The notes below the pieces were generated by a model. It saw only the letters and a program-made list of their open reading frames with translations. It was not told the origin of the DNA and did no database searches. Both the position numbers and the translations under genes were made by a program. A stretch of 35,678 bases of DNA from a virus, in the IMG/VR virus record IMGVR_UViG_3300042455_000289, positions 1 to 35,678 of that record, one strand, 5' to 3'. This document shows positions 6,501-18,928 of the stretch, one piece after another; within the stretch, counting starts at the first letter, position 1, and the number at the start of each line of letters is the position of its first letter.

Positions 6501-7554
6501 AGCAACTCGTTATGGCGAAGCATACCTGCCAGTTGTAATTAATCCATCAGGTGGAAATGTAGGGATTGGAACGACAACTCCAGTAGCAAGATTACACGTT
6601 GCAGCTCAAGGAGCATTATCTACCGACATAGCTATACGAGTTCGAAATAGTGCAAACACAGCGGATTTATTTAATGTTAATGGAAATGGGAACGTTGGTA
6701 TTGGAACGACAACTCCAGCAAGTATTCTGGATGTTCAGAGCACTGCTGCTGCGATAGGTACTACGTTGAAAGTTTCAAACACAAGCGCATCTGGGGGTAA
6801 TTACTTACAACTTGATAGAGCAACTAATTCAAGAGTAAACGCTTTAAACTTTAGTACAGCGGGTGTAGAGGATTGGTCATTAGGTATATTAAGAAATACC
6901 GGTAGCGCTACACAAATATTTAGCTTAAGTTATCAGACCGCTGGTAATATAAATTCAACTGGATTTGCAGTAACTAATACCGGCAACGTAGGTATTGGAA
7001 CAATTTCACCAAGTGTTAAATTACATACAGTTGGAGATGGTTTATTCTCAAGTAATACAAATACGAATTTAACAATAAATTCAAACGGAGGTGTTTCTAT
7101 ATTAACTTTAACAACAGCGGCAGGAGCCCAATCAATATACGGGGGTGTAGGAGGTTTAAATAATATGGACTTCTATACCGCAAGCGGATTTAGAATGCGT
7201 ATAGACCCTACAGGTAATGTTGGTATTGGCACGTCAACTCCGCAAGGTAGACTTGATGTAAGAGCTCCAGGAGCATTAACAATTGATACTGCTTTTAGAG
7301 TTAGAAATAGCGCTGACAGTAATAACTTAATAATTATTAACGGAGCAGGTGGAATTGGAGTTGGAACAACATCTCCGCTACCATCTGCGGTATTAGATAT
7401 TAATTCAACAACTCAAGGATTCCTTCCTCCGAGAATGACAAACGCACAAAGATTAGCAATATCATTGCCAGCGGTTGGATTAATGGTTTATTGCACAGAT
7501 GCAACGGAAGGATTATACATATATAAATCAACAGGTTGGACATTCATAATTTAA
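3541..7554 (+). CDS. Large tail/receptor fibre with GNVGIGT repeats (1337 aa)
   Basis: A docking segment lies at residues 1-50. A beta-rich shaft follows, containing NGTSYDLTANRSWSVGTVTSVG near 280-300 and LNGLTSQVQYFAVGTSGTDF...NRGALSSADWTAFNSK near 520-580, both widespread in flavobacterial phage fibres. From about residue 600 to 1285 there are roughly ten units of the type GNVGIGT-xx-P-xx-K/R-L-x-V. The end SAVLDINSTTQGFLPPRM...GLMVYCTDATEGLYIYKSTGW is the usual C-terminal tip of this fibre class. Three units carry a longer 123-bp cassette. It most likely forms a trimeric fibre that contacts the host surface; the exact receptor cannot be told. No S74-type autoproteolytic chaperone domain is evident. 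Confidence 0.85.
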   Translation: MAIGNYYPVSGTVVDQDLFLGTKAGNNNTVNYTAQTVANYLNTNSKIAIGGQISFRFDISPNIPKTISFSGGGGSGTPFASITQLIVSGIDLSSTDITIFLNYLNGSEILLAQQNQPNLFGNYKITGYTQIGTSNFYTLDLQFIGGNGTITENTYYNISSFVLSSGIDVPTLNQVLTAGNTSVIDAKVGNLYSYDNLNVDYGIVQFYDGGVSLKAATTNNLLFYNDATGSVSFSNGTYLPTLNFAGVGNNVYTFQNANGTLAFLSDIPSLSGYVPTSRTLTINGTSYDLTANRSWSVGTVTSVGLSMPPAFNVSSSPVTGSGTIAVTGAGVASQYIRGDGTLANFPTSTGGGASVSYYLNGSISQGTIGGVAYKEMNSVPVIGAGTDFTINADGYIAQFITDVGDPNKLLIPGGNWNFETYFSASSGGGSPRFYVELYKYDGTTFTLIASNSASPRLITDGTNIEAYFSALAVPATTLLVTDRLAVRFYVIHSGRTITMHTENSHLCQVITTFSSGLTALNGLTSQVQYFAVGTSGTDFNISSATDTHTFNLPTASAVNRGALSSADWTAFNSKASASGTTNYVAKFTGATAIGNSQIFDNGTNVGIGIALPEAKLEVVGSSSSGLQEVLRLRGTEAGGAVQGGPYISLRPVNTDPLLKNWELARVAASSVAFSYASNLLFYTNTGVAYTDITEKMRISSSGNVGIGTTAPGARLDVRAQGALSTDIAFKVRNSTDTADFIAVNGLGNVGIGTTASTEKLTVWNDTAASIGIHTNREIAGDLAILRFSTVTNGDADARKKGAIFFKANGTGNGRGDLQFAVNNAADSSNAGVANAVMTLQSDGNVGIGTAAPTTKLQVSGDANGILSLGRFENTNVGNAVQSRIQVVSGTATAQIQMFGSGHSTTPRLFRLSGSSDGGDMYLATGGVDRLAITLAGNVGIGTTAPVVKLAVAGTTTDTLRIGQTENLTGNKYMVLGMNVASQYAQIEATRYGEAYLPVVINPSGGNVGIGTTTPVARLHVAAQGALSTDIAIRVRNSANTADLFNVNGNGNVGIGTTTPASILDVQSTAAAIGTTLKVSNTSASGGNYLQLDRATNSRVNALNFSTAGVEDWSLGILRNTGSATQIFSLSYQTAGNINSTGFAVTNTGNVGIGTISPSVKLHTVGDGLFSSNTNTNLTINSNGGVSILTLTTAAGAQSIYGGVGGLNNMDFYTASGFRMRIDPTGNVGIGTSTPQGRLDVRAPGALTIDTAFRVRNSADSNNLIIINGAGGIGVGTTSPLPSAVLDINSTTQGFLPPRMTNAQRLAISLPAVGLMVYCTDATEGLYIYKSTGWTFII
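5680..5802 (+). repeat. 123-bp fibre cassette, copy 1 of 3
   Basis: Encodes RLDVRAQGALSTDIAFKVRN followed by a variable stretch and LGNVGIGTTA. Copies 2 (6589-6711) and 3 (7249-7371) have the same length and reading phase without indels. Copies 1 and 2 share the exact run ttatctaccgacatagct. Confidence 0.7.
6589..6711 (+). repeat. 123-bp fibre cassette, copy 2 of 3
   Basis: Encodes RLHVAAQGALSTDIAIRVRN, a variable stretch, then GNVGIGTTT. It is the same length and phase as copies 1 and 3. Confidence 0.7.
7249..7371 (+). repeat. 123-bp fibre cassette, copy 3 of 3
   Basis: Encodes RLDVRAPGALTIDTAFRVRN, a variable stretch, then AGGIGVGTTS. It is the last repeat before the conserved fibre tip. 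Confidence 0.7.
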
Positions 7555-7567
7555 AAACAAATAAAAA

Positions 7568-7876
7568 ATGGGACTATTAGTAAGTGCTACGGCAGAAAAA
7601 AAGATTTTAATTCAAGGAACAGAAATTGAATTACCAAGTGTTTATGCTCGTTTAGAGTATGGAGCAAGAGCAAACGGTGTAACATTAGAAATTGCAGCTT
7701 CTACTTATGAAAGCAAAGATGCTTACGAAAGCGGGGCAAGTATATTATTAACAGATGTGCCAATGTCAAATATAACTGTAGAGTTAGAAGAAGGACAAAT
7801 GCAAGATTTATCAAGTGCTGAATTGTATTCTAAAGCAGGATATGAAGAATTAGGTTACTCTGTAGAGGTATTGTAA
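7568..7876 (+). CDS. Hypothetical protein after the fibre (102 aa)
   Basis: A 102-residue acidic protein with regular beta-type sequence (EIELPSVYARLEYGARANGVTLEIAAST), ending ELYSKAGYEELGYSVEVL. There is no signal peptide, membrane segment or catalytic motif. It sits between the large fibre and the lysis genes, and its stop overlaps the next start (TAATG), so it is translationally coupled to the holin candidate. A small structural or fibre-associated role is possible; I do not recognise a family. The A-rich leader ttaaaaacaaataaaaaATG suggests strong translation. Confidence 0.65.
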   Translation: MGLLVSATAEKKILIQGTEIELPSVYARLEYGARANGVTLEIAASTYESKDAYESGASILLTDVPMSNITVELEEGQMQDLSSAELYSKAGYEELGYSVEVL

Positions 7877-8058
7877 TGAGTAAAGAGCAATTAGATATAT
7901 TATTAAATAAATGGGTAAGTAGGAAACTGTCCGTTTTTATAGTAGCATGCGCTGGATTATTCTCAGGATATTTAACCTCATCTGATTGGGTTATTATATC
8001 AACTGCATATATAGGCATTCAAGGATTTACGGATATTGTTAATAAAATTAAAAGATAA
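7876..8058 (+). CDS. Holin-like small membrane protein (60 aa)
   Basis: The first 17 residues are hydrophilic (MSKEQLDILLNKWVSRK). They precede a hydrophobic span (LSVFIVACAGLFSGYL, about 18-33) and a second weaker one (WVIISTAYIGIQGF, about 38-51), with a basic tail KIKR. Size, two membrane spans and the position just before a peptidoglycan-enzyme candidate and a spanin make it the best holin candidate. The DWVIISTAYIGIQG pattern resembles small membrane proteins of other Bacteroidota phages. Both ends overlap neighbours by TAATG. Confidence 0.6.
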   Translation: MSKEQLDILLNKWVSRKLSVFIVACAGLFSGYLTSSDWVIISTAYIGIQGFTDIVNKIKR

Positions 8059-8258
8059 TGGATCAATGCAGTCTGCGTGTTTATGGTTTAAACACATTAA
8101 CCCTCATAATGAGTCTAACAAATTTGGAAGCAAGCCTAAAAATACTATTATTGATAATATCAATAGTGTATACCTCAATGAAAATATTCGATTGGTTAAT
8201 AATTAAAATAAAAGGAAATAAAAATGCAGATAACAGTAAAGAGACTACACAAGACTGA
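8058..8258 (+). CDS. Second small membrane protein of the lysis cassette (66 aa; start uncertain)
   Basis: One clear membrane span (ASLKILLLIISIVYTSMKIF) is followed by a hydrophilic basic tail (KIKGNKNADNSKETTQD). This architecture fits a second holin, an antiholin or a pinholin-like protein. The start at 8058 overlaps the previous stop (TAATG). The internal ATG at 8109 (MSLTNLEASL, 49 codons) gives a cleaner protein, and similar small phage proteins begin there, so either start may be used. A dual start, as in lambda S, is conceivable but unproven. The 3' end overlaps the next gene by 35 bp. Confidence 0.5.
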   Translation: MDQCSLRVYGLNTLTLIMSLTNLEASLKILLLIISIVYTSMKIFDWLIIKIKGNKNADNSKETTQD

Positions 8259-8610
8259 TACATCTACAATAGGGGAACTATCGATCGATGGGCTATTCGA
8301 ATGTTACACATTAGAGGATGTTGAACGCTCAGTAAAGATTAAGAATGAAACAGCAATACCTAAAGGTACTTATAAAGTAATAATAAATCAATCTAATAGA
8401 TTCAAAAGATTATTGCCTTTATTAATTGATGTGCCTGGTTTTGAGGGGGTTCGTATACATAGTGGTAATTCAAACCATGATACAGAAGGTTGTATACTTG
8501 TTGGAAGAACACGCTCTAAAGATTTTATAGGGCAATCAAGAAAAGCATTTGAAAAATTATTTAAAAAAATGCAAGCGGCCAAAAATATAACCATAACTAT
8601 ATTATCATAA
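8224..8610 (+). CDS. DUF5675-family protein, putative endolysin-position enzyme (128 aa)
   Basis: The run AIPKGTYKVIIN, SNRFKRLLPLLIDVPGFEGVRIHSGNS and DTEGCILVG identifies the DUF5675 family found in phages and prophages. His79 and Cys90 lie in an H-S-G-N...D-T-E-G-C arrangement that recalls the His...Cys active site of L,D-transpeptidase/YkuD folds. The biochemical activity of this family is not established to my knowledge. Lying between two small membrane proteins and a spanin, it occupies the endolysin slot, and no lysozyme, amidase or CHAP gene is seen elsewhere in the window. A role in peptidoglycan cleavage or remodelling is inferred. It has no signal peptide, so it would need the holin for release. 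Confidence 0.7.
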   Translation: MQITVKRLHKTDTSTIGELSIDGLFECYTLEDVERSVKIKNETAIPKGTYKVIINQSNRFKRLLPLLIDVPGFEGVRIHSGNSNHDTEGCILVGRTRSKDFIGQSRKAFEKLFKKMQAAKNITITILS

Positions 8611-9098
8611 TGAAAAAGATTATATTATTATTTTTAATCATATTAACATCTTGCGCAAGTAGACAAGTTCAAGTAGATAAATTAGACGTAAAGAAAGATA
8701 GTGTAGCTGAAACAAAAGTTACAGTTACAACTATAGAAAACGAAATAAAAACAGATTCTACAAACATAGTTACAACTATTGATAGTAGTGAGATTACAAT
8801 CACCCCGATTGATACATGTAAAGAAATTATAGTAGAAGGCAAAGTTTATAAAAACGTTGTTTTAAAGATAAAAAAAAATAAAGTTAATACTTTATATACA
8901 AATAACAAAACAGAGTCTAATAATAAGCGTATGGACTCCGTAGCGACTGTTAAGGTAAATAAAACAGAAAAGATTTCTGGTAAAAATAAAACTATAGATA
9001 GAAAAGCTAATTACTGGTGGATCCTATGGTTAATTTTATTAATATTAACATTATATCAATTATGGCGAAACAGACTGTCGTTGCTAAAATTATTGTAA
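8610..9098 (+). CDS. Unimolecular spanin candidate (162 aa)
   Basis: The N-terminus is a lipoprotein signal (MKKIILLFLIILTSC), with the lipidated Cys at residue 15. A hydrophilic Thr/Lys/Val-rich linker of about 115 residues follows. The C-terminus has a transmembrane segment (YWWILWLILLILTLYQLW, about 135-152) and basic residues after it. An outer-membrane lipid anchor plus an inner-membrane helix in one chain is the u-spanin layout known from phage T1 gp11. Spanins fuse or disrupt the outer membrane in the last step of lysis of Gram-negative hosts. Position directly after the endolysin candidate agrees. The start overlaps the previous stop (TAATG). Confidence 0.75.
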   Translation: MKKIILLFLIILTSCASRQVQVDKLDVKKDSVAETKVTVTTIENEIKTDSTNIVTTIDSSEITITPIDTCKEIIVEGKVYKNVVLKIKKNKVNTLYTNNKTESNNKRMDSVATVKVNKTEKISGKNKTIDRKANYWWILWLILLILTLYQLWRNRLSLLKLL

Positions 9099-9250: not shown

Positions 9251-10798
9251 ATGTCAGACGCAATAGTCAAAAACTTAAGCTTTGGAAAAGAAGCGAGTGA
9301 TAAAGTATTTGCTGGAATAGAAAAATTATCTAGAGCGGTTAGTTCTACTCTAGGAGCCAGTGGTAAATGTGTTTTATTAGAAGACGGAAATGGTCGTCCA
9401 GTTATTACTAAAGATGGTGTTTCAGTTGCTGATTCAATTATTCTTTTAGATCCTGTTGAAAATATGGGAGCTACACTTTTAAAAGAAGCAGCTAGAAAAA
9501 CAGTTAGAGAAGCGGGGGATGGAACTACAACAGCAACAGTATTAGCGCACGCCATTTTAAAGAACGCTTACGCTATTGAGAATCCTAATGCTAGGAAGAT
9601 CAAAGAAGGTATTAATAAAGCAGTTGAAAATGTAATAAAGTATCTTGATGATATGTCTATAAAAGTAGACGATAATATGCTAGATCAAATTGCTACCATT
9701 TCAACTAATAATGATCCTGAGTTAGGTAAGTTAGTGGGAGATGCTTTTAGATCAGTTGGTAACACTGGAATCGTAATGATGGAAACATCGGCAGAGCCAG
9801 AATGTAGCTTACAAGTTGTTGAAGGAGTTCAATGTTCAATGGGTTTAAAGAATTCACACTTTATTACCAATCAAAAAAATAAAACTGCAGAGTTAGATAA
9901 CCCTTTGGTTTTATTAGTTGAATCTCCAATAGAGAATATAAGACAGATACAATCTGTTTTAGAATACGTTATAAAGAACAATAAGTCTTTACTTATAGTT
10001 GCAGATATGGAGCAAGTTCCATTATCAGCTTTGGCAATGAATAAGTCTAAAGGAAATATAAAAATAAATGTTATTGATGCTCCGGTTTACGGAGTTAATA
10101 GAAAAGAGATATTCGATGATCTTGCTTTATTAACTGGTGCAACTTTAATAAACGAAGATCTTGGTGATGATCTAGATTTAATACAGCCAGACGTATTAGG
10201 CAGTTGTATTAAAAGTATAACAAACTATGAAGAAACAATTCTTCACGTTGGTGAAACATCAAATGAGATATTAGAGATTATTGAGGATATTAAAAAGTCT
10301 TTAACAGAATCTAATCACAGTCATCAAGTAATAAAATTAGAAAAAAGATTAGCAAGACTAACAGCTAAGATTGCTGTTGTAAAAGTTGGTGCTAATTCAG
10401 AAATAGAATTAAAAGAAAAAGCAGATAGAATAGAAGATGCAATTTGTGCAACTAAAGCGGCTATTAAAGAAGGTATTGTGCCAGGCGGAGGAATTGCTTT
10501 ATTGAATGCTTCACATAATATAGATACTTTTTCAGTTGGAGAAGAAATACTATTAGATTCTATTAGAGCACCTTTTAAAACTATATTAGACAATGCGGGT
10601 ATTGATTATGCTCCGTTGGAAACAATATCGAAAATTGGGTATGGGCTTAATGTTATAACAGGTGAAACTGTAGATATGATTAAAGCAGGAATTATTGATC
10701 CTTTATTGGTGACAAAAAGTGCTTTAAGAAATGCAGCTTCTGTAGCAACTACAATATTGTCAACAGATTGTGTAATTAATAACTTACGCGTATCATGA
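9251..10798 (+). CDS. groEL: Phage-encoded chaperonin GroEL (515 aa)
   Basis: A full-length group I chaperonin, which folds client proteins inside an ATP-driven double ring. The ATP-site motifs are present: TKDGVSVA with Asp55 (E. coli Asp52), GDGTTTATVLA with Asp90 (Asp87), and RIEDAICATKAA with Asp396 (Asp398), followed by VPGGGIALL. The chain is shorter than the usual 545-550 residues, mainly because it ends at TDCVINNLRVS and lacks the Gly-Gly-Met tail that lines the cavity floor of bacterial GroEL. In the apical binding surface, GYLSPYF of E. coli corresponds to GLKNSHF here. It overlaps groES by 4 bp (ATGA). Phage GroELs are known from some giant phages and from virioplankton. Help in folding capsid or fibre proteins is inferred. 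Confidence 0.92.
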   Translation: MSDAIVKNLSFGKEASDKVFAGIEKLSRAVSSTLGASGKCVLLEDGNGRPVITKDGVSVADSIILLDPVENMGATLLKEAARKTVREAGDGTTTATVLAHAILKNAYAIENPNARKIKEGINKAVENVIKYLDDMSIKVDDNMLDQIATISTNNDPELGKLVGDAFRSVGNTGIVMMETSAEPECSLQVVEGVQCSMGLKNSHFITNQKNKTAELDNPLVLLVESPIENIRQIQSVLEYVIKNNKSLLIVADMEQVPLSALAMNKSKGNIKINVIDAPVYGVNRKEIFDDLALLTGATLINEDLGDDLDLIQPDVLGSCIKSITNYEETILHVGETSNEILEIIEDIKKSLTESNHSHQVIKLEKRLARLTAKIAVVKVGANSEIELKEKADRIEDAICATKAAIKEGIVPGGGIALLNASHNIDTFSVGEEILLDSIRAPFKTILDNAGIDYAPLETISKIGYGLNVITGETVDMIKAGIIDPLLVTKSALRNAASVATTILSTDCVINNLRVS

Positions 10799-11055
10799 AA
10801 GCAATAGGTAGAAATTTAATTATACAAAAGTTAAAAGAAGGTACAACCGTCACAAAAGGCGGTTTGATGCTTTCTGAGAATCAAAGAGAAGATATTAGAT
10901 ATGTTGAAGCAAGTGTTTTGTCAATAGGAGATGAAGTTGTTGGAGTTAAAGAAAACGATAAGATATTCTTTGATAGACATGCAGGCCACAAGATAGAAAT
11001 TGGCAAAGAGATATATCATGTTATAAAATTAGCCGATGTCGTTATTGTTTTATGA
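10795..11055 (+). CDS. groES: Phage-encoded co-chaperonin GroES (86 aa)
   Basis: This is the lid protein that caps the GroEL ring. The N-terminus (AIGRNLIIQKLKEGT) is the first strand of the GroES fold. TKGGLML (residues 21-27) matches the mobile loop that carries the hydrophobic contact tripeptide (IVL in E. coli, LML here). The later part VLSIGDEVVGVKENDKIFFD...HVIKLADVVIVL has the typical GroES order, although K-x-G-D is replaced by K-E-N-D. At 86 residues it is about ten shorter than E. coli GroES. The start overlaps the groEL stop and the stop overlaps the next start (both ATGA), so the three genes are translated together. Confidence 0.88.
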   Translation: MKAIGRNLIIQKLKEGTTVTKGGLMLSENQREDIRYVEASVLSIGDEVVGVKENDKIFFDRHAGHKIEIGKEIYHVIKLADVVIVL

Positions 11056-11510
11056 AACGATTAGAAGCTGCAGATGTCAAAGAGCTGGGGTTATTAAAAC
11101 ATTATAGAATAATACGCAGATGGGCATGCAAGAATAACGATTTAACGGATGCTGATTTAGAACTGTTAATCTATTTTGATTGCATGGACTTCTTTACAAA
11201 ACAGGATTATAAAATAGGTACATACGCATATAGTTGGGACAATAAACGCTGGAACAGTTTATTAAAAGAAGGTTGGATAGTGGTTTGGAGAAATAGAAAC
11301 CATACAACTCAAAAATACAATATATATAAAGTTTCATTTAAGTGTAAACAACTAATAAATAAAATGTACCGTATAATGCTGGGGAAAGAAGATATACCAA
11401 CTGGCCGCAGAAATACAATAATGAAAGGAAAAACATATATGGATACGGTAGCAATAACGGCCATAGAAAATGTAAATAACGATAAAACAAGAAACAATAA
11501 TGGATATTAA
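11052..11510 (+). CDS. Winged-helix (MarR-like) putative DNA-binding protein (152 aa)
   Basis: LTDADLELLIYFDCM (31-45) fits the first helices of a MarR-type domain. WDNKRWNSLLKEGWI (62-76) fits the recognition helix and the first strand of the wing, VVWRNRNHTTQKYNIYKVS the wing, and KCKQLINKMYRIMLG the last helix. The N-terminal LEAADVKELGLLKHYRIIRRW is conserved in related phage proteins as I remember them. The tail beyond residue 112 is polar and probably flexible. It follows groES with a 4-bp overlap. It could regulate late genes or be a virion-associated DNA-binding protein; the sequence does not decide between these. Confidence 0.6.
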   Translation: MKRLEAADVKELGLLKHYRIIRRWACKNNDLTDADLELLIYFDCMDFFTKQDYKIGTYAYSWDNKRWNSLLKEGWIVVWRNRNHTTQKYNIYKVSFKCKQLINKMYRIMLGKEDIPTGRRNTIMKGKTYMDTVAITAIENVNNDKTRNNNGY

Positions 11511-12329: not shown

Positions 12330-12602
12330 ATGGCAAAATTTATCCAAATCCCAACTACTGTAGCTGGGTCACCAAACATCTTATTTAACGCAGACGTTAT
12401 TAGCGCGGTTTCTTTCCTTACTGCTACTACATTTGCAGTTTATGCACAATCAAAAGTATTTACATTCACAACTAGTGCTGCTGGTGCTGCTGGGACTGTA
12501 GCTGCAATCTACAAAGCTATCTTAGCTGTAAATGGACCAGTTTTAGTAGACGTTGTAATGCCTACTGGTGTTACTATCGCTGCTCTACCTGTAGTATCCT
12601 AA
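12330..12602 (+). CDS. Small Ala/Val/Thr-rich protein, candidate decoration protein (90 aa)
   Basis: A 90-residue beta-type protein rich in Ala, Val, Thr and Ile (FIQIPTTVAGSPNILFNADV; later VLVDVVMPTGVTIAALP) with no Cys. Its leader is almost pure A and C (aaaaacaaaaaaATG), and a strong terminator follows 14 bp after the stop. Its codons lean to C-ending Phe, Ile and Tyr forms like those of the capsid gene. Together these suggest a highly made virion protein, for example a capsid decoration or small fibre subunit. I do not recognise a specific family. Confidence 0.55.
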   Translation: MAKFIQIPTTVAGSPNILFNADVISAVSFLTATTFAVYAQSKVFTFTTSAAGAAGTVAAIYKAILAVNGPVLVDVVMPTGVTIAALPVVS

Positions 12603-12616
12603 TTATTTATTTTAAA

Positions 12617-12642
12617 TCCCCTATAGAGTAATTTATAGGGGA
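12617..12642 (+). terminator. Terminator hairpin after the 90-aa protein
   Basis: tcccctata (12617-12625) pairs perfectly with tatagggga (12634-12642) around an 8-nt loop, in otherwise very AT-rich DNA. An aatttaataattta run follows. The symmetric AT flanks could let it work in both directions. Confidence 0.75.
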
Positions 12643-12667
12643 ATTTAATAATTTAAACCGTATAAGA

Positions 12668-12982
12668 ATGGCATTTAAAATGACGGGTCCACCTTACAAT
12701 ATGGACAACACACCTATTTATAGTACGGACATGGATGATAATATTTTAGGCATGGCTCAGAATAATGGAACTATACTTATTAATAAAGATATGTCTCCAT
12801 TAGAATTAAAAAAGAATAAGACAATAGAACACGAAAAAGTTCATATTGATCAAATGAAAAGAGGCGATCTGGATTACACAGACACTCACGTAATTTGGAA
12901 AGGAAAAAAATACAAAAGATCTTCTATGAAAGAAGGATCTAAAAAGTTACCTTGGGAGATGGAAGCTTATAAAAAGCAGTAA
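12668..12982 (+). CDS. Mini HExxH putative metallopeptidase (104 aa)
   Basis: Residues 55-59 are HEKVH, a zincin HExxH signature in a helix (NKTIEHEKVHIDQMKRG). A possible third ligand lies in LPWEMEAYKK (Glu97 or Glu99), where small phage zincins often have an E-x-E-A-Y type motif. The rest is short: an N-terminal MTGPPYNMDNTPIYSTDM, a strand GTILINK before the helix, and TDTHVIWKGKKYKR after it. It could cleave virion proteins or be an inactive structural relative. Activity is inferred from the motif. It follows a terminator and has its own leader. Confidence 0.6.
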   Translation: MAFKMTGPPYNMDNTPIYSTDMDDNILGMAQNNGTILINKDMSPLELKKNKTIEHEKVHIDQMKRGDLDYTDTHVIWKGKKYKRSSMKEGSKKLPWEMEAYKKQ

Positions 12983-13026
12983 ATACACGTAATAATAATA
13001 TTATATAAATCTAATATTATTTAATT

Positions 13027-13386
13027 ATGAAAAAAGTATTTTTAATCATCGCAATTGCATTATTTAGTTTAAACACTTTTGCTCAAGAAAAAATTAATCC
13101 AAATGATTTAGTTGGATATTGGAGACCAAGCGAAGAAACAACACAACTTTTCTTCTGGAAAGATTTAAGCGGTAATTTGCAAATGCAAGAAATTTGCGGA
13201 TCAACTGGGGATCCATTAGATTTGCTTACGCTAAGAGTTGAAGAAACATATGTGTTTGCTTCTACACTATTTAAAGCTAATTCTTGGTTAACCAATTGTA
13301 CTTATACACTTGTTAATAAATCTACATTGAAATGTGTTATTACCGGAAGTGGATCAGGAACAGTATATTATACAAAGATTAAATAA
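13027..13386 (+). CDS. Secreted/periplasmic protein with Sec signal peptide (119 aa)
   Basis: The N-terminus MKKVFLIIAIALFSLNTFAQ is a textbook Sec signal peptide of flavobacterial type, with cleavage likely after TFA. The mature part of about 100 residues begins with NPNDLVGYWRPSEETTQLFF, which recalls the first strand of lipocalin-like 'GxW' domains. It contains two Cys residues (EICGS and TNCTY) that could form a disulfide in the periplasm, and a third in LKCVI. It differs from its neighbours, which are cytoplasmic virion-type proteins, and looks like a host-derived cargo gene. Roles such as superinfection exclusion or envelope modification are guesses. Confidence 0.6.
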   Translation: MKKVFLIIAIALFSLNTFAQEKINPNDLVGYWRPSEETTQLFFWKDLSGNLQMQEICGSTGDPLDLLTLRVEETYVFASTLFKANSWLTNCTYTLVNKSTLKCVITGSGSGTVYYTKIK

Positions 13387-13411: not shown

Positions 13412-13954
13412 ATGGCATACACTCAAAAACCAGGTAGAGGTAACAACGCAAAAACAGGTAATGGCTTACCTAGTCCGTTTATGCAAGAAGATAAATACGG
13501 AGCATTTGGTAAAGATTTATCAAAAGGTAATCCTTATGAAAAATGGGATACTAATAACCCAAGCTTTAAAGCTAGAAAGTTTACTGAAAAATCAGGAATG
13601 CTTGATAGTATTGCAACCGCTAAGAAAGCAATAGAATTTGGCATTGGAAAAAGAGAAGCTGGTAAAATGGGTAATATAGCTGCTAATGCTGTAAGAGCAA
13701 ATAGAGGTAATGCTGATTTAAATGTTACTGTTAAAACAGTACCTGGAGGAGAAGAATACAAACAAAAAGTTAAGCCAGAAATTAATCCAAGAACTGGTGC
13801 AAAAGTAAAAGTAGTTCCTCCTACTAAAATGAAAGTAAGCAAAAAAACTGCTTATGACATTAAAGAAGCTAGCAATCAAAAATTAAAAGCAAGTGCTAGA
13901 AAAAATTACGCGGAGAATGCTCAGGCAGCAATGAAAAACAAAATGAAAAAATAA
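13412..13954 (+). CDS. Basic protein of unknown function (180 aa)
   Basis: A strongly basic 180-residue protein. The N-terminus is Gly/Pro/Asn-rich and disordered (QKPGRGNNAKTGNGLPSPFM). A helical middle follows (MLDSIATAKKAIEFGIGKREAG, ANAVRANRG), then a Lys-rich tail ending MKNKMKK. No catalytic motif is seen. It starts after an A-rich leader (aatttaaaaacaaaATG) and its stop is followed at once by the next ATG. It resembles internal or head-associated small basic proteins of other phages only in composition. Confidence 0.6.
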   Translation: MAYTQKPGRGNNAKTGNGLPSPFMQEDKYGAFGKDLSKGNPYEKWDTNNPSFKARKFTEKSGMLDSIATAKKAIEFGIGKREAGKMGNIAANAVRANRGNADLNVTVKTVPGGEEYKQKVKPEINPRTGAKVKVVPPTKMKVSKKTAYDIKEASNQKLKASARKNYAENAQAAMKNKMKK

Positions 13955-14473: not shown

Positions 14474-16321
14474 ATGATAAATATAGGGATTGGAGTAAGT
14501 TGGGCTAAGTCTTTATATAGCGTGGCTAATAATATTATTGCTAACTTTAGAGCAAGAGTATTATCATATCCAAATAGTATATTTGAAGCTGGACCTTGCT
14601 TAGATGCAACATTGGAAGAATTAAATGCGGTAGGATTATTAGACGATGCTTCACTTATTGTTACACCTAATGCGTACAATGAGGGAGTATTATATGACGT
14701 TATCCCTAATACACCTCTTGGCGATATGGATGTTGTTCGTGCTACAACAGCAACGAGAGTAAATAGTTCGGGATTGATTGAAGTAGTTCCGAGAAATTTA
14801 ATTACATATAGTAATGATTTTACAAATGCAGCTTGGATAAAAACAAGTGGTGCGTCAATAACTGCAAATTCGGTTATTGCTCCAAATGGAACAATGACTG
14901 CCGATACTTTAAACGTTGCGGTAGCTACTTATTCGGGAATATATCAAAATCTTGGAAGTTTAAGTGGACAAAATACAATTAGTATTTATGCTAAAAAAGG
15001 AACAAAAGATTTTTTATATTTTATAAATTTACAAGGAAGTACAACAGCCGTTTGGTTTAATATTAGCAACGGAACATTAGGCACGGTTTCAAGTGGTTAT
15101 ACTGCTACAATAACTGACGTTGGTAATAGTTGGTATCGTTGCACTTTAAGTCAATCCGTTAGTGCAACAAGTTACTTTCAATTAGGTTTAAGCGATTCAG
15201 ACGGTTCTGTTACTCCTACAAGTACGGGAACAGCTTACATTTGGGGTGCTCAATTAGAAGCTTTTTCAACAGCAACAGAATATTTCCCTACAACAACACG
15301 TTTAAATATACCTCGTATTGATTACACAAACGGAAGTTGTCCGAGTTTATTGGTAGAGCCACAAAGAACAAATTTATATTTTCCGTCAATTCCCTCTTCA
15401 TCAGGTGGTGGAACATATACTTTGAACGATGCAATTTCTCCCGACGGAACACAAAACGCATCATCTTTTGTACCAAGTGGATTTGGTGTTGTTTATTCTA
15501 ATTCAATAAGTACAACAGTGCAAACTTACACTTTCAGCGTTTATTTAAAAGGAACTGTTAATGGCCAAAAAGTTGGATTAGGCGATAATGGAAATATATT
15601 AAATAATTTTACAATAACAACGTCTTGGCAAAGATATACTTTCACTTTTACAGGTAGTGTTCAAAATACTCCTTTTTATCTTTTATCAGGTAATTATTTT
15701 AGTCCCGCTGAAAATAATAAGTTTTATATTTATGGCGCTCAATTAGAAGTAGGCTCATACGCCACTTCACTGATACCGACTCAAGCATCTTCAGTAACTC
15801 GTAACGCTGATGTTATTTCTAAAACAGGAATAAGTAGTTTAATAGATAGTCAACAAGGTGTTTTATTTATGAACATAAAAGCTTTATCTGATAATTATGA
15901 CTCACAAAGTAGTTTTATTGGATTAACAAGTGGAACATTCGCAGATACTATACAATTATATTATACTTCAACAAGATTAGGCGGATTGTTTAGAAGTAAT
16001 TTCAATAGTTCAGATGTTTTTGTAATATCATCAACAATTAATACATTTAATAAAGTTGCTTTAAGATGGGTTGGAACTACTTTTTCAGTTTTTGCAAATG
16101 GTGTTTTAATTGGAACTCGAACATTAACTCAATTACCAATAAATAAATTAAACACATTTATAACTAATGATGGTAATGGTGGAAGCCCTTTTAGCGGTAA
16201 TATTGATTCTATTCAAATTTACAAAACACCTCTAACAGACGAACAATTAACTTTACTTACAGGAGACTTATACGATAGTTATTCTGAAATGGCGAATAGT
16301 TTAAATTATATCTTAGAATAA
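14474..16321 (+). CDS. Head/tail spike with carbohydrate-binding-like and LamG-like domains, paralog 1 (615 aa)
   Basis: Residues 1-85 are a distinct N-terminal segment that probably docks to the virion. The conserved VRATTATRVNSSGLIEVVPRNLITYS follows, then a carbohydrate-binding-like beta domain (about 110-275, with AWIKTSGASITANSVIAPNG and YIWGAQLEAFSTATEYFPTT). A second similar domain lies at about 300-440 (YIYGAQLEVGSYATSLIPT). A concanavalin/LamG-like domain (about 455-600, ALRWVGTTFSVFANGVLIGT and IDSIQIYKTPLTDEQL) ends the chain. This composition is typical of 'phage head spike fibre' proteins that bind surface glycans. The stop overlaps the start of a paralog by one base. Confidence 0.78.
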   Translation: MINIGIGVSWAKSLYSVANNIIANFRARVLSYPNSIFEAGPCLDATLEELNAVGLLDDASLIVTPNAYNEGVLYDVIPNTPLGDMDVVRATTATRVNSSGLIEVVPRNLITYSNDFTNAAWIKTSGASITANSVIAPNGTMTADTLNVAVATYSGIYQNLGSLSGQNTISIYAKKGTKDFLYFINLQGSTTAVWFNISNGTLGTVSSGYTATITDVGNSWYRCTLSQSVSATSYFQLGLSDSDGSVTPTSTGTAYIWGAQLEAFSTATEYFPTTTRLNIPRIDYTNGSCPSLLVEPQRTNLYFPSIPSSSGGGTYTLNDAISPDGTQNASSFVPSGFGVVYSNSISTTVQTYTFSVYLKGTVNGQKVGLGDNGNILNNFTITTSWQRYTFTFTGSVQNTPFYLLSGNYFSPAENNKFYIYGAQLEVGSYATSLIPTQASSVTRNADVISKTGISSLIDSQQGVLFMNIKALSDNYDSQSSFIGLTSGTFADTIQLYYTSTRLGGLFRSNFNSSDVFVISSTINTFNKVALRWVGTTFSVFANGVLIGTRTLTQLPINKLNTFITNDGNGGSPFSGNIDSIQIYKTPLTDEQLTLLTGDLYDSYSEMANSLNYILE

Positions 16322-18030
16322 TGGCACAGACAAGTTTAATAATAGGAGATACAAATTGGGCAGTAAAAGAAGATAGCCTATTGGGATATAATGTTATTCA
16401 AAATAAGTATTTACCAATACCTATAGATACCGTACGTGCTACTACAGCTACACGAGTAAATGAACAAGGGTTAATTGAGATTGTACCAAGAAACTTAATT
16501 GAATATAGTGAACAACTTGATAATGCAGTTTGGATTAGAACTAATTTAACTGTAACTCCGAACGCGACTACTGCTCCAAACGGAACATTAACTGCTGAAA
16601 AATTAATTCCAACTGTAACTAACGATTTACATATAACCGAAAGTAGTGTAGTTTCTTTTGTTAGTGGTAGTATATATACTTTTAGTTTCTATGCAAAAAG
16701 AGCTGAAGATAATTTCATTCAAATTACAGCTTCATCTTCTTTGCTATCAACAAGAGCAAATTTTAATTTATTAAATGGTACTTTAGGATTTGTAGATAGC
16801 GGTATAACCGCTACTATTACACCTATTAATAATGATTGGTATAGATGTACCGCTTCTTTTGTTGCGGCTGCTACAGGTAATTTTAGAATGGTTTTATGTA
16901 ATATACCAGCTTCAACTTCTGCTCGTTTTGCAACTTTTGCAGGTAATGGAACTTCAGGCGTTTTTGTTTGGGGTTGCCAAGTTGATAATGGCTCAGTTGC
17001 TACAGAATACTTTCCTACAACTAATAGATTAGATATACCACGTATTGATTATTCAACAGGTACAGCTGCGCTTTTGGTGGAATCTGGTCGGACAAATTTA
17101 GCTACAAATAGTGACGGAAATGTAAGTACATATGGTTCAGCTATAAATGTTACTAATGCATCGAGTTCTTTTAATTCATTCACAAATGCAATACAATTTC
17201 CAAGCACAGGTTTAGCTTTATCTTATAAGTCAGTAGTTACAACAGCACAAACATACGCTATTTCTGTTTTTATAAAAATGGATGATAATTCAGTTCCAAT
17301 ACTTTCAGCAAGTCAAACAACAGGGAATTTTTGTTTAGTTATAGCGGGAGCCATTGCTACAAATAATTTAAAAGTTGAAAGTTATGGTAACAATGTTTAT
17401 AGATTAAGTGCAACAGCAACAAGTGGAGCAGTTAATATTAATAATGGTTTAATTAGATACGATACACAAGTATTAAAATCTTTTAAAATTACAGGAATAC
17501 AATTAGAAGCTGGCGCTTACCCAACATCGTACATACCTACATTAGCAAGTTCTGTGAGCCGTAATTCTGATTTGATTTCTAAAACAGGAGTTAGCGGTTT
17601 AGTTGGAACTGAATTTACTATATTTTTTGATGGTTTTGAAAGTATTGGAGGAAGTAGTAGTAGATATATTGTTTTAAAAGGGAGCGGAGGGCTTTATGCA
17701 AATTTAATAATTATTGAACAAACGCCAACAAATTTAATAGCTGCTTTTGTTAATGATAACAGCTCGTCGAGTGTATTTGCTTCTTATTCCTCTCAATTAA
17801 CAAGTGGGCAAAGAGTTAAATTTGCTCTAAGATGTAAAAATAACGATTTTGCATTTTATGTAAATGGGCAATTAAGAAATGCCCAAGCAAGCGGAACAGT
17901 GCCTACAACTTCAACTTTATATTTAGGATATTATCCTGACTATGCAGATAATTATAATATAATAAATTCATCCGTAATTTATAATTCAGCTTTAACAAAT
18001 GCAGAAATGGCACAATTAACAACACTATAA
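16321..18030 (+). CDS. Head/tail spike with carbohydrate-binding-like and LamG-like domains, paralog 2 (569 aa)
   Basis: It has the same domain order as the preceding gene: VRATTATRVNEQGLIEIVPRNLIEYS, a carbohydrate-binding-like domain (FVWGCQVDNGSVATEYFPTT), a second one (ITGIQLEAGAYPTSYIPTLA), and a LamG-like end (FALRCKNNDFAFYVNGQLRN...NSALTNAEMAQL). The N-terminus (MAQTSLIIGDTNWAVKEDSL) is short and unrelated to paralog 1, so the two may dock at different places or on different partners. The DNA is clearly diverged, so the duplication is old. The two genes overlap by one base and are probably made in a fixed ratio. Confidence 0.78.
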   Translation: MAQTSLIIGDTNWAVKEDSLLGYNVIQNKYLPIPIDTVRATTATRVNEQGLIEIVPRNLIEYSEQLDNAVWIRTNLTVTPNATTAPNGTLTAEKLIPTVTNDLHITESSVVSFVSGSIYTFSFYAKRAEDNFIQITASSSLLSTRANFNLLNGTLGFVDSGITATITPINNDWYRCTASFVAAATGNFRMVLCNIPASTSARFATFAGNGTSGVFVWGCQVDNGSVATEYFPTTNRLDIPRIDYSTGTAALLVESGRTNLATNSDGNVSTYGSAINVTNASSSFNSFTNAIQFPSTGLALSYKSVVTTAQTYAISVFIKMDDNSVPILSASQTTGNFCLVIAGAIATNNLKVESYGNNVYRLSATATSGAVNINNGLIRYDTQVLKSFKITGIQLEAGAYPTSYIPTLASSVSRNSDLISKTGVSGLVGTEFTIFFDGFESIGGSSSRYIVLKGSGGLYANLIIIEQTPTNLIAAFVNDNSSSSVFASYSSQLTSGQRVKFALRCKNNDFAFYVNGQLRNAQASGTVPTTSTLYLGYYPDYADNYNIINSSVIYNSALTNAEMAQLTTL

Positions 18031-18446: not shown

Positions 18447-18701
18447 ATGGAAGTAGTAAAACAGATTACAAAAGAACAATTAGAAAAAATTACAACGCAA
18501 CAAAAAGATCTTCAAGCGTTATTAACTAACATTGGATTATTAGAATCCCAAAAGCATAGATTCTTACATCAAATTGCAGAGGTTAATAAAACAATCGAAG
18601 ACTTTAAAACTGAATTGCAAGAAGAATATGGACCAATCAATATTAGTTTAGAGGATGGTTCTTATACTGAGATTGAAGAAGAAGTTAAAGAAACTGAATA
18701 A
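18447..18701 (+). CDS. Coiled-coil protein (84 aa)
   Basis: About 60 residues of nearly continuous heptad-like helix (ITKEQLEKITTQQKDLQALL, ESQKHRFLHQIAEVNKTIED) are followed by GPINISLEDGSYTEIEEEV and an acidic tail. Small coiled-coil proteins of this kind, with the NINLE-D/T-G end, are common in late regions of Bacteroidota phages. The role is unknown. Leader ttaaattaaataaaaaATG is A-rich, and the stop overlaps the next start (TAATG). Confidence 0.65.
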   Translation: MEVVKQITKEQLEKITTQQKDLQALLTNIGLLESQKHRFLHQIAEVNKTIEDFKTELQEEYGPINISLEDGSYTEIEEEVKETE

Positions 18702-18928
18702 TGAATTCAGTAATTAGAAAAATAAGTATAGGCGTTGATTATAAAAATGAAGCAATGCATTATTCTGTAGGCCAGCAGGTTTACGGAGGACATGAGATTG
18801 CATGCATTTTAGTAGATGAGCAAGATTCATCGTATAATGTTTATATAAAGAAAGAAGACGAAGTAATGCCATGGAAGAAGTTTAATCATAACATGGCAGT
18901 ATCTGTAGAATACGATTTAGAATACTAA
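18701..18928 (+). CDS. Small conserved phage protein (75 aa)
   Basis: The start MNSVIRKISIGVDYKNEAMH, followed by YSVGQQVYGGHEIACILVDE and KKEDEVMPWKKFNHNMAVSV, is a pattern I know from small proteins next to packaging genes in Bacteroidota phages. It is predicted to be beta-rich, without Cys clusters or a membrane segment. Both ends overlap neighbours by TAATG, so it is made together with the coiled-coil protein and the GroES-like protein. The function is unknown. Confidence 0.65.
   Translation: MNSVIRKISIGVDYKNEAMHYSVGQQVYGGHEIACILVDEQDSSYNVYIKKEDEVMPWKKFNHNMAVSVEYDLEY

Follow-up and report, generated by a model that had tools for sequence, protein, structure and literature searches.

A predicted exported calycin-like protein encoded by an optional gene of phage contigs, with relatives in Bacteroidetes genomes

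What is the role of a small, apparently exported protein whose gene lies among the virion genes of a phage? The question is raised by an open reading frame at positions 13027-13386 (+) of a stretch of viral DNA, IMG/VR record IMGVR_UViG_3300042455_000289, whose full 35,678 nucleotides are called the window here. A preliminary description had presented the product as a host-like secreted protein, and an ATG-initiated frame of 119 amino acids is indeed found at exactly those coordinates. The window's protein, which matches no Pfam or PHROGs model, belongs to a family that recurs in uncultivated phage contigs, swaps a domain at a conserved joint, and is common to Bacteroidetes genomes in which its genes stand side by side. 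To our knowledge, exported phage accessory proteins are known mainly from enterobacterial model phages.

The phage and the predicted barrel protein

The terminase large subunit encoded in the window is 65% identical to that of an unclassified podovirus from Manatee Spring (MW202828, 60,850 bp) and 45% identical to those of Flavobacterium phages of the genus Elemovirus. It matched 87 records in all, 68 of them from Flavobacterium, 15 from Cellulophaga, two from Tenacibaculum, one from Maribacter, and one from an unclassified phage. GroEL and GroES are encoded at 9251-11055 (+), and both are likewise annotated in MW202828 and Elemovirus. These genes place the window in a podovirus that has GroEL and is related to Elemovirus. 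Seven of eight related virus records viewed whole measure 63.6-66.9 kb and the eighth 52.9 kb; the window, at 35.7 kb, therefore probably represents about half of a full genome. The Manatee Spring relative, together with lake-like names among the metagenome-assembled genomes (MAGs) described below, suggests a freshwater origin. The gene at 13027-13386 is absent from both reference phages, MW202828 and the Elemovirus phage.

The first 19 residues of the protein, MKKVFLIIAIALFSLNTFA (13027-13083, +), read as a signal peptide with presumed cleavage before Q20. They include two lysines and a hydrophobic core with a Kyte-Doolittle mean of 3.06 over its best 11 residues, and they end in T-F-A before a Q. 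An Ala-Gln junction is the usual signal end in Bacteroidota, and [AS]Q falls at residues 17-23 in 89 of 92 distinct proteins from phage contigs. These features support an export signal of the signal-peptidase-I type. In three relatives (L042, L070, and L130) an uninterrupted hydrophobic N-terminal anchor replaces the cleavable signal and, on inferred topology, would stay uncleaved. The preliminary description had called this the only cleavable Sec signal in the window, which holds for signal peptidase I among the 42 genes compared, but not for lipoprotein signals, one of which, MKKIILLFLIILTSC, begins the product of 8610-9098. That gene (+) combines an LTSC lipoprotein signal with a C-terminal hydrophobic segment and by eye resembles a one-protein spanin. 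It is preceded by a DUF5675 gene (8224-8610) and two small hydrophobic reading frames, and the four together likely form a lysis cluster (7568-9098).

The mature domain (13084-13383, +) was modeled with AlphaFold2 from residue 21 onward, on an alignment of 70 family members, as a short helix and an eight-stranded calycin-type barrel (mean pLDDT 95.5, pTM 0.85). The calycin signature, as set out in passages of PMC7521688, pairs a GxW motif on strand 1 with a basic residue on the last strand. Here GxW occupies residues 30-32, on strand 1, and Lys117 lies on the last strand; across the family the motif is present in 70 of 70 members, as is a basic residue at mature position 97 (Lys in 61, Arg in 9). 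Structural comparison by VIA-align gave Z scores of 9.5 to 11.4 among the matches listed, mostly to designed barrels and avidins, with a designed barrel at the top (Z 11.4, rmsd 2.4, 96 aligned) and pallilysin TP0751 at Z 9.9. Foldseek searches with the barrel model returned nothing at E <= 0.001 (best E 1.9e-3), and neither did a search of BFVD at the same threshold. The resemblances to streptavidin (1mk5; Z 10.6, rmsd 2.6, 92 aligned) and to Cap15 (7n35; Z 10.3, rmsd 2.2, 86 aligned), at 14% identity, are likenesses of fold only; Cap15 is tethered to the membrane on its cytoplasmic side, and no PADLOC defence model matched the window's protein at E <= 0.1. By sequence, the best solved structure is BT_0846 of Bacteroides thetaiotaomicron (PDB 2m4l), a remote match with a profile E value of 0.0024 over positions 2-64 and a single-sequence E value of 0.13. 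In excerpts of PMC7521688 this protein is an eight-stranded calycin relative of TP0751 and is called uncharacterised, and the literature that we found reports no occurrence of it in phages. On model and signature together, the mature part is a member of a calycin-like family.

The export signal and the predicted compact barrel, which has no lipobox, support secretion of the window's protein to the periplasm, as had been proposed, the three anchored relatives being the exceptions. The preliminary description had also pointed to cysteines suitable for a periplasmic disulfide. The window's protein does have three (Cys57, Cys91, and Cys103), but among the 92 phage-contig proteins the mature parts of 25 lack Cys altogether, 40 have one, 16 have two, and 11 have three, which rules out a disulfide as a feature of the family.

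Our first collection comprised 70 distinct proteins, 56 from viral contigs and 14 from bacteria; in a later one, also of distinct proteins, viral contigs contributed 92, counting the protein of the window, and bacterial genomes 15. A scan of IMG/VR with a single protein found 30 loci, and a scan with an alignment found 58, one of which is a fragment of 23 residues. The exact pattern of the leader, the conserved DNA before the start codon, occurs in 31 IMG/VR contigs. Seeds of the first scan included MKKVFLII, biasing it toward members with the conserved signal, and the pattern scan is biased toward the leader; elsewhere the mature domain and another gene served as queries instead. When the 70 members were compared with family libraries, matches were weak and scattered, with at most seven members hitting any one Pfam family. 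Among the papers listed by searches of the open-licence PMC literature, none describes the family. Among 53 pairs at 80-99.5% nucleotide identity, which are not independent of one another, dN/dS of the mature part lies between 0.000 and 0.358; values this low indicate that the protein has been maintained by purifying selection. With 70 distinct members and such low ratios, the gene is real, beyond what chance would produce.

An optional cassette with an exchangeable mature half

The preliminary description had placed the gene alone, behind a terminator-led segment. It is not alone: it follows the gene at 12668-12982 by 44 bp and precedes that at 13412-13954 by 25 bp in a tight plus-strand array. 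The upstream neighbor (12668-12982, +) encodes 104 residues without a signal peptide and contains the motif HExxHx[DN]Q, which is present in 55 of 55 relatives. Its AlphaFold2 model (pLDDT 84.1) has as top Foldseek matches the small zinc peptidases selecase, IrrE/PprI, and abylysin, with E values of only 0.3-0.9; it is possibly a phage mini-metallopeptidase of the minigluzincin type. A relative of this gene lies within 700 nt upstream in 55 of 58 rows (the window and 57 loci); the exceptions are L001 and L009, whose contigs are cut before that point, and L085. The downstream neighbor (13412-13954, +) encodes a basic protein of 180 residues and variable length, and a related gene comes next in 52 of 58 contigs. 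By eye, a stem CCCCTATA...TATAGGGG can be recognized at 12604-12650, between 12330-12602 and 12668-12982. It was not listed by a terminator scan of the window; probably it is the terminator that the preliminary description meant, and it stands before the upstream gene.

Presence of the barrel gene was counted in contigs carrying a relative of the gene at 11052-11510. The set consists of the best 80 of 571 matches to that gene, less eight that were set aside as too short (one of them with the barrel gene). The barrel gene is present in 53 of these 72 contigs and absent from 19, as counted from plus-strand ATG reading frames of at least 50 residues at a profile E <= 1e-3, a procedure that very divergent or cut copies could escape. 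The HExxH gene occurs in 61 of the 72, and 51 of those 61 have the barrel gene as well; it is kept in 10 of the 19 contigs that lack the barrel gene and is missing from two of the 53 that have it. Two of the ten (L131 and L148) have clean sites, where the HExxH gene is followed directly by the basic gene and an apparent leader start remains between them, while the other eight have different genes at the site.

Immediately before the start codon lies an AT-rich conserved element, CGTAATAATAATATTATATAAATCTAATATTATTTAATT (12988-13026, +), containing an inverted repeat, AATAATATTA/TAATATTATT, that is perfect in the window. The last 33 bases of the element have one site in the window at up to three mismatches, where zero are expected. 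Its core, [CT]GT[AG]ATA, is found within 50 nt upstream of 88 of the 92 phage copies, of none of the 15 host copies, and of 22 of 1,011 other plus-strand reading frames, suggesting that the phage-specific element provides dedicated control of the gene. An RNA hairpin was considered and set aside, since RNAalifold on 21 leaders predicted zero pairs despite the perfect inverted repeat in the window; we therefore treat the element as acting at the level of DNA. A general late promoter does not explain the whole element, which has a single site in the window. A shorter core, at up to two mismatches, has nine sites there against 1.2 expected, and the element may be a degenerate phage promoter. Scans of the window for sigma-70 promoters and for terminators gave results near the level of shuffled sequence. 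Taken together, the comparison of contigs shows an optional accessory cassette that, in phage contigs, comes with its own upstream element.

Mean pairwise nucleotide identity rises from 0.75 in the region of the upstream gene to 0.85 in the leader, then falls to 0.74 over the signal peptide, 0.62 over the mature domain, and 0.49 downstream (53 contigs and 1,378 pairs, after dropping from 57 both L085 and three contigs with less than 300 nt upstream). Profiles in 60-nt steps, drawn for three chosen sets of contigs, locate the joint. L021 matches L010 at every position between -600 and +59, and between +180 and +359 it resembles L017 at 93-100%. L016 is 83-100% identical to L002, a near-identical relative of the window, from -600 to +59, and 48-65% identical to it from +120 to +359. 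The opposite arrangement is seen in L026, identical to L025 from +120 to +419 yet only 33-47% identical to it from -600 to -361. Because nearly identical upstream DNA is joined to different mature domains, the leader and signal region is a recombination joint; these alignments show that recombination at this conserved joint exchanges the mature half.

Mantel tests on the 29 of 56 contigs that have all seven genes show that similarity of the mature domain is correlated with that of the next gene, 13412-13954 (r 0.37, p 0.0005). Correlation is not clear for the upstream gene 12668-12982 (r 0.15, p 0.09), for 11052-11510 (r 0.21, p 0.055), or for 18701-18928 (r 0.09, p 0.15). By this measure, and in the identity profiles, changes in the downstream neighbor tend to accompany those in the mature domain.

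Relatives in Bacteroidetes genomes

Homology searches of bacterial genomes bore out the term host-like. In GTDB genomes, 23 stretches match the search pattern, and six of these encode relatives, 53-57% identical over the mature domain and in what look like chromosomal surroundings, in five MAGs titled Bacteroidetes or Flavobacteriaceae. Searching the five carrier MAGs whole raised the number of copies to 14. Of 199 genomes drawn from the same genus, five have copies, four of them already known; another 199, drawn around a second carrier, yielded four, all among these five. In a sample of 299 genomes from the same family, copies were found in the starting genome only.

Copies adjoin one another at five of the six first-found loci: two to three stand side by side in L098 through L102, and in L103 two copies are split by one gene. 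Directly after the array in L099 (where the contig end cuts it), L100, L101, and L102 comes a gene for an export-type protein of 651-660 residues. The one in L100 has a Trypsin_2 domain (E 5.4e-26), and those of the other three loci are 83-87% identical to it. L098 and L103 lack a trypsin-like gene after the copies, and in G422 the same island, complete with its protease, contains zero family copies. A family search found a DUF885 gene beside the copies in L098. A 431-residue membrane protein was considered as a dedicated partner and dropped, because it occurs in 14 of 199 genomes, just three of which have copies. L103 (5711-6580) and L228 (2890-3738) encode export-type proteins of 289 and 282 residues, 75% identical to each other, the former lying between two family copies. 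Their HG and C motifs, read by eye, are what we take to be a resemblance to clan CD peptidases; searches of Pfam and PDB found nothing convincing for them.

Reading of translations names methionyl-tRNA synthetase and superoxide dismutase around L126, and RimM and a tRNA methyltransferase around L127. The idea that the bacterial copies are prophage remnants was rejected, as no phage genes were seen around them and the neighbors read as chromosomal housekeeping genes. Mis-binning of a contig into a MAG may account for host copies; the L102 contig is 195 kb long. On gene surroundings and sequence similarity, the comparison shows a family common to phages and Bacteroidetes chromosomes.

Phage and host members are interleaved in phylogenetic trees. 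A tree built on 70 mature domains requires, for its 14 host rows, eight label changes, at least four of which are forced by well-supported branches. Of the host copies, one from L103 forms a pair with phage L029 (100/100), one from L100 falls inside a group of nine rows that are otherwise phage (96/88), and one from L098 inside a group of 13 rows that are otherwise phage (98/90). A quick tree of 107 rows needs nine changes, at least three of them forced, and constraining its 15 host rows to a single clade lowers the log-likelihood by 219 (p-AU 5e-205), by which a single host clade is rejected; the trees rest on 99 columns for many rows, with long branches meeting, and the p-value is meant for groups named before the tree is seen. 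From the interleaving we conclude that genes either crossed between phages and bacteria on more than one occasion or represent old paralogues sorted in both. The nesting of host copies inside phage groups suggests that some moves went from phage to host, though the trees are unrooted.

One locus stands apart. L085 encodes two adjoining export-type proteins (7320-7706 and 7935-8297), one of which is a family member, and the other, just upstream, has by eye a GxW-like stretch, YYGHWETN. This contig has no other gene cluster in common with the other contigs and lacks the leader element; it may belong to a separate phage lineage that shares this trait.

Candidate functions

The preliminary description had noted that periplasmic proteins of phages can block superinfection or alter receptors. 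The reading that we put first, with a probability of about 0.38, is that the protein is a periplasmic binder for superinfection exclusion. The barrel would be released into the periplasm during infection and bind one component of the host envelope; so bound, it would occupy or jam an envelope protein needed by incoming related phages, as Llp does to FhuA. A swap of the mature barrel would change the target and leave expression and export as they are, and in hosts this binder would exist in captured or ancestral form. In favor of this reading count the export signal with the barrel fold, the phage-specific upstream element, the optional presence, the cassette swap, purifying selection, and the interleaving of host and phage rows. 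Exclusion ranks slightly above protease inhibition, since small periplasmic proteins serving this purpose have evolved in phages, T5 Llp among them, and since exchange of a binding domain under fixed expression fits a changing target. Llp is characterized in parts of PMC9586334 as a small periplasmic phage protein that acts on the envelope receptor FhuA in superinfection exclusion; the likeness to the protein in the window lies in size, compartment, and a target in the envelope, the last of these being proposed here. The T4 antiholin RI, with its cleavable signal, and T4 Spackle are further precedents.

Several observations lower the probability of exclusion. Llp is lipidated, whereas the signal in the window ends in FAQ without a lipobox Cys. 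For 47 of the 92 proteins, similarity of the mature domain was compared with similarity at the C-terminus of a large reading frame upstream, and the correlation is weak (r 0.10, p 0.004, mean identity 0.25); that frame was picked by size and is only presumed to be a tail fibre. So weak a correlation also counts against exclusion. The trypsin-like gene after host copies at four of six loci would suit inhibition or immunity no less well than exclusion. A search of 50,697 isolate phage records, in which no cultivated phage with the barrel gene was found, gave two matches at chance level (E 5 and 7), neither to an exclusion protein, and showed no sequence relation to Llp or any known phage exclusion protein. 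We know of no exclusion protein with such chromosomal relatives. If exclusion is correct, the family would offer an entry to the receptors and superinfection rules of Bacteroidota phages. In a more speculative and doubtful version, the chromosomal arrays would be libraries of exclusion genes, captured repeatedly from different phage lineages and kept as periplasmic defence, and phages, keeping the leader fixed, would swap nothing but the mature barrel, either to reach another target or to escape the library. Defence and counter-defence would then be built from one exchangeable periplasmic domain.

The strongest rival to exclusion, though less likely, is a periplasmic protease inhibitor, a barrel that would block a host envelope protease and guard either the proteins of the phage or the infected cell up to lysis. 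It owes this rank to the gene order in hosts and to the lipocalin-like inhibitors already described. Host copies directly precede the trypsin-like exported protein in L099, L100, L101, and L102, and its presence in L099 as well led us to weight inhibition up and exclusion down. In passages of PMC2873492, staphostatins are lipocalin-like, and Bfi1A, Bfi1B, and Bfi4 of Bacteroides fragilis are putative staphostatin-like inhibitors of 116-138 residues, predicted for the periplasm or cell membranes and encoded beside proteases, partly on mobile elements. The barrel family differs from them on two counts: at E <= 1 its 70 members match 20 Pfam families, none of which is an inhibitor family, and the phage gene has no exported protease next to it. 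Inhibition is further weakened by the two host loci without the trypsin-like gene, L098 and L103, and by the G422 island, where the protease stands without any copy.

The same arrays could instead hold orphan immunity genes directed against periplasmic toxins of competitors, the phage copy shielding the infected cell from its neighbors until lysis. The adjoining paralogues of L098 through L102, the near-adjoining pair of L103, and an island of mostly unnamed proteins would suit such a role, but we consider it unlikely, as no toxin or secretion gene was recognized among the scanned neighbors, where PADLOC matched the protease domain and, weakly, one specificity subunit. Either inhibition or immunity would make the family a new class of phage-carried envelope effectors.

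Binding of a small molecule, by a scavenger or carrier of the lipocalin or avidin type useful late in infection, would fit a fold common to avidins and lipocalins; fold alone shows no function, however, and the designed barrels among the best structural rows mark the match as generic, so we regard this role as improbable. Still harder to credit is a regulator of lysis timing like the T4 periplasmic antiholin RI, which has a cleavable signal according to sections of PMC8385771: an export-type phage protein with such a signal has that precedent, but 4 kb separate the gene from the lysis-like cluster, and some contigs lack the gene while keeping its neighbors. A virion component with a processed N-terminus is very improbable even though the surrounding genes look structural, given the Sec-type signal, the chromosomal homologues in bacteria, and the optional presence of the gene. 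Among the genes that follow, two fibre-like genes lie side by side at 14474-18030 (+) and encode proteins of 615 and 569 residues that form one similarity cluster; many related contigs have just one such gene or none.
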